This document shows positions 8,103 to 10,483 of a DNA stretch of 64,000 bases, one piece after another. Every line of letters starts with the position of its first letter. Within the stretch, counting starts at the first letter, position 1. The notes below the pieces were generated by a model. It was not told the origin of the DNA. It searched no databases and saw nothing but the letters and a program-made list of their open reading frames with translations. Origin of the DNA: Halobaculum halobium (GTDB lineage Archaea; Halobacteriota; Halobacteria; Halobacteriales; Haloferacaceae); assembly GCF_030127145.1 (NCBI RefSeq), contig NZ_CP126158.1, positions 1,860,001 to 1,924,000 on the forward strand, in the 5' to 3' direction. A program made the position numbers and the translations under genes.

Positions 8103-8699
8103 ATGGACGAGAAGACGGAGGAACTCCGCGACATCTTCCTCGACGCGACGGGCGACGACACCGTCACCGAGCGTCAGGAGGAGGGGCACGGCTCGCTCGC
8201 TCGCGAGACCGACGCCACCGAGCAGGTCGCCGACCTCGTCGCGCGGATGTCCGAGCGCTACGAGTTCGACTCCGGGCGCTCCGACGACGATCTCGTTCGG
8301 GTCGTCACCCTGTACTTCGAGGGCGCTGACGACGCCGCCATCGCCGACGATCTCGGAACCGATGAGGGGGCGGTCTTCGACGCGCGGATGGACCTCCACC
8401 TCGTCCGCGACGGCGACCGGGAGGCGCCGTTCGACCTCTCGCAGCTCCGATCGATGCACGTCGACGGCGTGGCGACCGACGAGCGCGCCGCCCGACTCGA
8501 CGCCGACGAGGCGACCGTCGAGCACTACTCGAGGGTCGTCGCCGCCGACCTGGAGTCGACGCGGGCGAACGACCGCTTCCGCGACGAGTTCGCCGACCTG
8601 CTCGCCGAGCAGGACCTCAAGGGGGGTCACACCGAGGACGCCCGCGAGGACGGGCTTCGAGAGGCCGCCGAGGACATCGAGACGAACGTTTCATTCTAA
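8103..8699 (+). CDS. Conserved haloarchaeal protein (conditioned-medium-induced protein 4 type)
   Basis: A 198-residue very acidic, probably helical and cytoplasmic protein. The N-terminus MDEKTEELRDIFLDATGDD and the block RYEFDSGRSDDDLVRVVTLYFEGADDAAIADDLG suggest a degenerate helix-turn-helix near residues 55-95. From memory, this matches the family named conditioned medium-induced protein 4 in haloarchaea, a name based on expression and not on a known reaction. A TTTTGTT box lies 31 nt upstream, consistent with leaderless transcription. It is followed by the 23-bp repeat array. DNA binding is a guess. Confidence 0.65.
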   Translation: MDEKTEELRDIFLDATGDDTVTERQEEGHGSLARETDATEQVADLVARMSERYEFDSGRSDDDLVRVVTLYFEGADDAAIADDLGTDEGAVFDARMDLHLVRDGDREAPFDLSQLRSMHVDGVATDERAARLDADEATVEHYSRVVAADLESTRANDRFRDEFADLLAEQDLKGGHTEDAREDGLREAAEDIETNVSF

Positions 8700-8824
8700 C
8701 CGACCTCTTTCCGCCTCGGGTTTCTTCGCTGCGCTGCGGGAACCGCTCGGCGAAACCCCGTCGATGCCAAAAGGCCGCTCGCTCGGCCTCCGGCCTCGCT
8801 CGGGGTACTCACGCTGGTGACTCC
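8700..8824. other. Spacer before the repeat array
   Basis: This 125-bp stretch holds a short inverted repeat, GGGTTTC at about 8718 and GAAACCC at about 8751, that might form a terminator hairpin for the gene ending at 8699. A C/T-skewed segment of CGGCCTC-type copies follows at about 8774-8808. No gene was seen. Confidence 0.3.
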
Positions 8825-9061
8825 GCGACCGAAACTGCGACTGCGACGCGACCGAAACTGCGACTGCGACGCGACCGAAACTGCGACTGCGACGCGACCG
8901 AAACTGCGACTGCGACGCGACCGAAACTGCGACTGCGACGCGACCGAAACTGCGACTGCGACGCGACCGAAACTGCGACTGCGACGCGACCGAAACTGCG
9001 ACTGCGACGCGACCGAAACTGCGACTGCGACGCGACCGAAACTGCGACTGCGACGCGACCG
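8825..9061. repeat. Tandem array of ten 23-bp units (minisatellite)
   Basis: Ten head-to-tail copies of a 23-bp unit containing CGACCGAAACTGCGACTGCG run from 8825 to 9054 without a visible mismatch. A partial eleventh copy (GCGACC) ends the array. Each unit itself contains the smaller repeat CTGCGA. Because 23 is not a multiple of three, translation would cycle through all frames with a 23-residue period. The open frames crossing it on both strands are therefore by-products and not proteins. There are no spacers, so it is not a CRISPR array. It lies about 70 bp upstream of a Cas4-like gene. Perfect identity suggests recent expansion or active homogenisation. Confidence 0.95.
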
Positions 9062-9133
9062 CACCACTTCCGCGACCGCGACGCCCACCGCTCGCCGCGA
9101 ACGTTCAAATACGAACCCGGAACCACCACCCAC

Positions 9134-9847
9134 GTGTCCCGGGACAAGGTGACGTTCACGGACCTCGCGACGGCGACGTACTGCCCGCGGCAACTGTACT
9201 ACGACCGCCGCGAGGATGACCGCGAGCCGCCGCCGGAGGCGACCGTCCGGATCGAGCTCGCCTTCCGGTATCCCGAGCTGCGAGATCTGGACGACGCGGC
9301 CCTGGCGGCGGAATCGATCGATCGCCCGCCGGATAAGTACCGTGCGGCGCTCGCTCGGCTGACTGACCGAGCGGACTGGGAGTCGCTGTCGAGTCCGACG
9401 AACACGCGCGTCCTGCTCGACGGGAAGGACGCACGCGGCGTCGCGCACAAGATCCTCGGGCCGATCGGGGCGGCGGCGCCGCGAGACGACGAGGGGAACC
9501 CGACCGGGGACCCGCCGGTTCCGGTTGTCGTCTCGCCCGGCGAGCCGCCCGATCAGGGCGTGTGGGAGCCGCAGTCGGTGAAAGCCGTCGCGGCGATGCA
9601 CGCCCTCTCGTGGCAGGAAGGGAGGCGGATCAGGCGCGCGCTCGTGGAGTACCCCGCCCACGGCGTCGTTCGCGAGGTCTCCCTGTCGGTCCGGCGCTCC
9701 GGAACGTACCGCCGGGTACTCCGTTCGGTTCGAGACATGGACGGCCCGCCGGCGCGGCTGTCGGGCGACACGAAGTGTCGAGAGTGCCGTCACCGAGCGA
9801 ACTGCGGGGTGAAAACGCGGAGCCTGCGGAGCCTGATCGGACTGTGA
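9134..9847 (+). CDS. Cas4/Dna2-like iron-sulfur protein with degenerate nuclease site
   Basis: A 237-residue protein beginning at GTG 9134. The N-terminal YCPRQLYYDRR and the C-terminal CRECRHRANCG supply four cysteines in the Cas4/AddB arrangement for a 4Fe-4S cluster. The fold region between them lacks the RecB-type nuclease residues. Where Cas4 has GxxD, E-x-K and QxxxY, this protein has GVAHKILG, VVVSPGEPPDQGVW and SVKAVAAMHAL, with no matching Asp, Glu-x-Lys or Gln. It should therefore bind DNA or a partner and not cut. No other cas gene and no CRISPR array is in the window. An AT-rich TTCAAATACG box 20-30 nt upstream is the likely promoter, just after the tandem repeats. Confidence 0.75.
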   Translation: MSRDKVTFTDLATATYCPRQLYYDRREDDREPPPEATVRIELAFRYPELRDLDDAALAAESIDRPPDKYRAALARLTDRADWESLSSPTNTRVLLDGKDARGVAHKILGPIGAAAPRDDEGNPTGDPPVPVVVSPGEPPDQGVWEPQSVKAVAAMHALSWQEGRRIRRALVEYPAHGVVREVSLSVRRSGTYRRVLRSVRDMDGPPARLSGDTKCRECRHRANCGVKTRSLRSLIGL

Positions 9848-9865: not shown

Positions 9866-10483
9866 TCAGGGTTCGCTCGCCAGCCACTCGCGGATCTCGT
9901 CGGCCAGTGGGCCGGCGCGGTGGATGACGCCGCGATCCGGATCGACGACGGTGCTCTCGCCGCCGGGCGTCTCGCCGCCGTCGAGCACGACCGCACAGCC
10001 GTCGCGGATCCGCGGGTCGAGATCGGCGACCCGGCGGACGCTCCCGGCGCCCGAGCGGTTCGCACTCGTCGCGGTGATCGGGCCCGCGGCGCCCGCAAGC
10101 GTCCGCGCAGTTCGGTGATCCGGGACGCGGATCCCGACCCGCGGCCCGCCGTCGGTGAGCTCGGGCGCCAGCGCGTCGCCGCGGTCGACGACGACGGTCA
10201 CTGGCCCCGGGAGGAACGCCCGCGCGAACCGTTCGGCGCGGTCGCTCGCGGGCACGAGCGACAGCGCCGCCTCGACGCCCCCGAACGCGACCGACAGCGG
10301 CTTGTCGCGCGAGCGGTCCTTCAGCTCGTACACGCGCTCGACCGCGGTGGGGTCGGTGGCGTCGGCGCCGAGCCCGTACACCGTCTCGGTCGGATAGACA
10401 ACGGGGTCGCCGGCGCGCACCGCCTCCGCGGCGCGCTCGATATCAGCGTCCGTCAGTCCGCGGTCCGATCCGTCGGCGTTCAT
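9866..10483 (-). CDS. sua5: L-threonylcarbamoyladenylate synthase (Sua5/YrdC family)
   Basis: A 205-residue cytoplasmic enzyme that forms threonylcarbamoyl-AMP from threonine, bicarbonate and ATP, the first step of the t6A37 tRNA modification. Family markers are present in order: YPTETVYGLGADA near residue 32, ELKDRSRDKPLSV (the Lys/Arg substrate-binding motif), FLPGPVTVVV, GIRVPDH and TSANRSG. The length matches the short YrdC-type proteins that lack the C-terminal Sua5 domain. It is the last gene of a three-gene operon with glutaredoxin and redoxin, separated from the redoxin by nine bases. The link of tRNA modification with thiol proteins in one operon is unexplained. Confidence 0.92.
   Translation of the reverse strand: MNADGSDRGLTDADIERAAEAVRAGDPVVYPTETVYGLGADATDPTAVERVYELKDRSRDKPLSVAFGGVEAALSLVPASDRAERFARAFLPGPVTVVVDRGDALAPELTDGGPRVGIRVPDHRTARTLAGAAGPITATSANRSGAGSVRRVADLDPRIRDGCAVVLDGGETPGGESTVVDPDRGVIHRAGPLADEIREWLASEP

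Follow-up and report, generated by a model that had tools for sequence, protein, structure and literature searches.

How did a perfect tandem array of 23-bp units come to lie directly upstream of a Cas4-like gene in Halobaculum halobium, and does it do anything for that gene? The initial annotation of this locus had raised the possibility that the array acts in regulation or recombination, or is a target of the neighbouring protein. We analysed the window (64,000 nucleotides of contig NZ_CP126158.1, positions 1,860,001 to 1,924,000; coordinates below are those of the window) and compared the locus with its counterparts in related genomes. We consider it very probable that the array is a lineage-specific, non-coding minisatellite that was born by slippage or unequal recombination, was homogenised by gene conversion, and plays no role for the neighbouring gene.

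A perfect 23-bp array in the spacer of a Cas4-like gene

The features of the locus and the evidence for each are as follows.

8103-8699, + strand: upstream gene, conserved haloarchaeal protein of unknown function (open reading frame list)
8712-8752 and 8755-8806, + strand: two consecutive stem-loops (fold z -1.5, congener alignment, copies in the same genome)
8824-9061, no strand assigned: perfect 23-bp tandem array, 10.35 units of CGCGACCGAAACTGCGACTGCGA (TRF, exact scan, shuffles)
9054-9061, + strand: terminal partial unit CGCGACCG (exact scan)
9071-9078, + strand: further CGCGACCG in the residual degenerate spacer (exact scan)
9099-9115, + strand: putative core promoter of the Cas4-like gene, GAACGTTCAAATACGAA (conservation in the genus, position)
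9134-9847, + strand: gene for a Cas4-fold protein of 237 aa, GTG start (profile, structure model, homologue alignment)
9866-10483, - strand: convergent Sua5/YrdC gene, threonylcarbamoyl-AMP synthase (Pfam PF01300, E 2.7e-46)

TRF placed the array at 8824-9061, with a period of 23, 10.3 copies, 100% matches, no indels and a score of 476, and an exact scan returned identical ends over 238 bp, or 10.35 units. The ten perfect copies reported upstream of the Cas4-like gene were thereby confirmed, with a start 1 bp earlier than first given (8824, not 8825). The exact scan resolved the array into 11 copies of CGCGACCG alternating with 10 of AAACTGCGACTGCGA, the units abutting head to tail with nothing between them; the first copy (8824-8831) and the terminal partial unit (9054-9061) form an 8-bp direct repeat that bounds the whole. 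The array is far above chance expectation: when periods from 9 to 100 were scanned over the 2 kb around it, self-matches ran for up to 215 bp, whereas none of 500 dinucleotide shuffles gave a run longer than 16. Its end lies 72 bp before the GTG at 9134.

The spacer begins at the stop codon of the upstream gene, which ends at the same place in all 10 congeners and whose product contains a weak sigma-70 region 4-like stretch (a Pfam match below the cut-off). The stem-loop region that follows aligns in nearly all of the 10 congeners, the first stem being absent from one of them (L053). Beyond the array, a residual degenerate spacer (9062-9098) leads to GAACGTTCAAATACGAA, which is near-invariant in all 11 Halobaculum genomes and which we infer to be the promoter from its position and haloarchaeal convention. 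It contains a TATA-like TTCAAATA at 9104-9111, which is 40 bp past the end of the array; from this box to the GTG is about 26 bp, a spacing that is consistent with a leaderless transcript of the Cas4-like gene.

The stem-loop element occurs at six places in the genome, at gene ends: here at 8701-8808 and at G000:C1 1050892, 1180862, 1179751, 1313579 and 1673942 (L067-L071). Its layout is CTCTTTTCGCCTCGGGTTTCCTCG..CGGGAACC..GAAAACCCGTTCATG..CAAAA-GCCGCTCGCTCG..CGCTCGCGGTAC, and the copies differ in the interval between or inside the stems. The element sits in the same spot across the genus, and related copies are carried by plasmids of Natrinema and Haloterrigena; it is possibly a transcription terminator or a REP-like element.

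The unit CGCGACCGAAACTGCGACTGCGA was not found elsewhere in the 3.46 Mb genome at up to three mismatches, and near-matches to it, single and isolated, occurred in only 2 of 98 other genomes of the family. A mobile element was rejected, the unit having no match in phages or viral contigs and plasmids matching only the upstream hairpin element. Shuffled sequences fold less well as RNA than the array's + strand (z -3.6), a difference that we take as a by-product of perfect repetition, and the other strand folds worse than its shuffles; folding as single-stranded DNA was not better than that of shuffles. A search of RNA families gave no match near the gathering threshold, and a scan for bacterial-type promoters and terminators, whose model is bacterial and unsuited to archaea, returned nothing.

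The site is empty in congeners

Among named organisms, Halobaculum species carry the closest relatives of the neighbouring Cas4-like protein. We compared the locus with those of 10 further Halobaculum genomes, one per species. Both flanking genes and the promoter are kept in all 10, and none has the array. In one congener (G004, locus L050) the empty junction is exact: the sequence reads GGTGACTCCGCGACCG followed by CACCAC, with a single CGCGACCG before CACCAC, and the spacer GGTGACTCCGCGACCGCACCAC equals that of the window minus ten 23-bp units, an expansion of 230 bp relative to the empty junction. The distance from the stop codon to the TATA-like box is 134-253 bp in the congeners and 403 bp here, or 173 bp without the array. 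The congener spacers carry imperfect CCGCGACCGCACCG-like repeats. Because the congeners are empty, the junction in G004 is exact and the tract is repeat-like in the congeners, the array is best read as a derived, lineage-specific, species-level insertion in an already repeat-like, degenerate CCGCGACCGC-type tract. The earlier proposal of recent slippage or gene conversion is borne out by the perfection of the array, its absence from all 10 congeners and the exact empty junction in one of them.

We infer slippage or unequal recombination as the mechanism, conversion as the homogeniser, and neutrality. Slippage or unequal recombination fits because the array is perfect, ends in a partial unit, contains a nested GCGACTGCGAC and has 8-bp direct repeats on either side of a 15-bp interval. 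The starting state would have been an ancestral degenerate CCGCGACCGC-type spacer between the stem-loops and the promoter of the Cas4-fold gene. This spacer would have gained a 31-bp seed, CGCGACCG-AAACTGCGACTGCGA-CGCGACCG, the source of whose AAACTGCGACTGCGA part is not visible in any of the 10 congeners. Direct repeats of the 8-bp CGCGACCG, and the nested GCGACTGCGAC, may then have paired out of register during replication or recombination, and such mispairing would have raised the number of 23-bp units to ten. Recent age could account for the perfect identity, together with conversion among the numerous chromosomes that a polyploid haloarchaeon carries; such conversion could also propagate a new array length and fix it in a cell line. 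Intermolecular gene conversion is efficient in the polyploid Haloferax volcanii (PMC8223754).

An ordinary minisatellite with a readable empty site

The array was initially described as unusual for its perfection. This holds for its own genome, where it is the only perfect array of at least 4 copies in a sample of 464 kb, but not for related genomes, in which such arrays are not rare. Samples of those genomes held exact arrays of at least 4 copies and a period of at least 9 at the following frequencies: 1 in 0.80 Mb from Halobaculum, 6 in 1.19 Mb around the orthologue in other genera of the family, and 0 in 0.80 Mb from other families. The pooled rate, which rests on genome samples rather than whole genomes, is about 2.5 perfect arrays (at least 4 copies) per Mb of related DNA, so that several would be expected in a genome of this size and the array is ordinary in kind.

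With 10.35 head-to-tail copies of 23 bp, the array falls within the prokaryotic minisatellite (VNTR-type) class of at least 3 copies of a unit of about 10-100 bp; variation between close relatives, which also marks the class, was seen as presence only, in 1 of 11 Halobaculum species with one genome per species. It resembles the prokaryotic satellites and minisatellites surveyed previously, which included archaea (PMC6749651), in its short head-to-tail unit, its uniqueness in the genome and its lack of relationship to other satellites; 40% of the archaeal satellites in that survey were unique. The satellites of Halobacteria there are mostly short, with periods that are multiples of 3, and were read as coding, whereas the present array has a 23-bp unit and is intergenic. 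The repeats of archaeal Borg elements (PMC9879509) are similar in their perfect units, flanking partial repeat, recent independent births and absence from close relatives, and their intergenic units are often not multiples of 3. Borg arrays, however, are A-rich and many per element, and the array described here is chromosomal, solitary and G+C-rich. As an archaeal minisatellite whose empty site can still be read in a sister species, it is a clean example of how such an array is born, and it would serve as a ready strain-typing marker.

The array is most likely without effect on the Cas4-like gene

The proposal that the array regulates the gene is not supported: the array is absent from every other examined species that has the gene, and the conserved core promoter is intact beyond it. 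As that promoter lies 40 bp past the array, no role for the neighbouring gene is needed. Moreover, the gene is near-universal (97 of 99 genomes of the family and 115 of 116 of the order) and the unit is absent elsewhere, so the 23-bp unit is not part of what the gene requires; most likely, the array does nothing for it. An operator of ten sites, or a target for the Cas4-like protein or another DNA-binding protein, is in our judgement very improbable. The position of the array 40 bp upstream of the TATA-like box and the recurrence of arrays before orthologues in other families would agree with such a function, but the array is missing from the 10 congeners and from 98 genomes of the family, the gene being present in nearly all of these, and a period of 23 bp does not correspond to an integral number of turns of the helix. 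The units near orthologues are also unrelated in sequence and length, which argues against the suggested target site of the Cas4-like protein. To our knowledge, the Cas4 fold does not serve as a sequence-specific operator binder.

The frames noted on both strands are indeed open (8817-9152 on the + strand and 8809-9159 on the - strand), and a repetitive peptide could in principle be encoded there. Their openness means little, given that 23 is not a multiple of 3 and that 42% of random 23-bp units of the same composition are open in six frames when repeated. Family matches to the frames amounted to noise, the congeners have no counterpart, and the + frame runs across the core promoter; we regard coding as exceedingly improbable. 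Short direct repeats are likewise found in replication-origin iterons and CRISPR-like arrays. No Orc1/Cdc6 gene lies closer than 169 kb (the next is at 237 kb), the repeats have no spacers between them and no Cas1 was found in the genome, all of which makes either identity scarcely conceivable. The minisatellite is ordinary and well resolved, with one statistical lead and one interesting neighbour.

Tandem arrays are commoner beside the Cas4-like gene than beside matched genes

The statistical lead, a weak one, is a counterpoint to a purely random origin. We surveyed 100 stretches of 20 kb centred on the Cas4-like gene in other species, excluding the present window, and counted arrays with a TRF score of at least 80 within 500 bp of the gene; controls were matched for flanking intergenic length. 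Such arrays were present in 14 of 100 genomes, against 3.9 expected (SD 1.9). Among 15 gene families with at least 20 members, the Cas4-like gene ranked first (11 of 80 versus 22 of 572; Fisher p 0.001, and p = 0.008 after removing two related cases). In a replication set of 40 loci from other families, all six arrays were upstream of the gene; overall, arrays lay on both sides. The spacers upstream of the gene were C-rich on the coding strand in two sets (p 0.002 and 2e-5), with CACCGC and CCGCAACC enriched on that strand, and we count this composition, seen in other families, in favour of a degenerate-tract origin of the array.

A purely random origin does not predict the excess, and a repeat-prone spacer would. 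The excess suggests a spacer that occasionally gives birth to arrays, which favours slippage over a target site, the units near orthologues (17, 21, 23, 26 and 57 bp) being unrelated in sequence. A stronger version, in which the solo Cas4-like locus is a genuine hotspot of array birth, through hairpin and C-rich spacer or through the protein or transcription there causing local re-replication, strikes us as unlikely. The rate of 14 in 100, the top rank among 15 families and the enrichment of CACCGC and CCGCAACC speak for it, but once the threshold on array score is tightened and each of two homologous pairs is counted once, the P value becomes borderline (0.05-0.10), and other gene families with few members reach 10-12.5%. 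The occurrence of arrays on both sides of the gene, the non-independence of related genomes and a home-made gene finder also weigh against it. That the spacer is a recurrent birthplace of unrelated arrays, which would have arisen independently in several families with the present array as one case, local re-replication being provoked by a stem-loop and the C-rich degenerate tract after it or by the nuclease-dead Cas4-like protein, we hold to be quite unlikely. Should the excess hold, one could test why repeats arise again and again in certain prokaryotic spacers. Returning to the minisatellite reading, slippage or unequal recombination in a degenerate tract remains our preferred account.

An independent, C-rich array of 8.0 unrelated 23-bp units lies 101 bp upstream of an orthologue in another family (L205, 10391-10575, G172), and a nearly perfect array of 14.7 units of 70 bp starts 86 bp downstream of an orthologue in another genus (L132, 8596-9625, G024). 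A further array, with 6.8 copies of a 123-bp unit (L153, 4279-5113, G099), includes an apparent tRNA 3' end (GGTTCGAATCC) and may have grown from the end of a tRNA gene.

The neighbouring gene encodes a solo Cas4-fold protein

The initial assignment of the neighbour as Cas4-like was right as to fold. The AlphaFold model (pLDDT 87.7) found a Cas4 structure, 8d3l, as its best Foldseek match (E 8e-6); a PDB sequence search with the Cas4-like profile gave nothing convincing, and NCBIfam TIGR00372 scored 20.5 bits, below its cut-off of 65. The Fe-S cysteines C17, C215, C218 and C224 are present in 100% of 100 proteins, and G97, G102, K106, W144 and E172 are also invariant in the homologue alignment. 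No conserved D or ExK of the PD-(D/E)XK catalytic site was found on strands 100-108 and 129-133, mapped by strand order rather than superposition, among 100 homologues, unlike in the haloarchaeal CAS-Cas4 (CRISPR) proteins, where D..EVK is present. The nuclease site thus appears to have been lost in all 100 homologues. A search for Cas1 (PF01867) gave no match in the genome, which is 95% complete, with positive controls; the neighbour is a solo Cas4-fold protein and a CRISPR link is not supported. It resembles solo-Cas4 proteins described previously (PMC5704561) in standing alone outside CRISPR loci, in its Cas4 fold and in its four cysteines. A near-universal Cas4-fold protein with an apparently lost nuclease site may merit more attention than the array itself. 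In 84 of 100 genomes a Sua5/YrdC gene, which here converges on the Cas4-like gene, is found no more than 1 kb from it.
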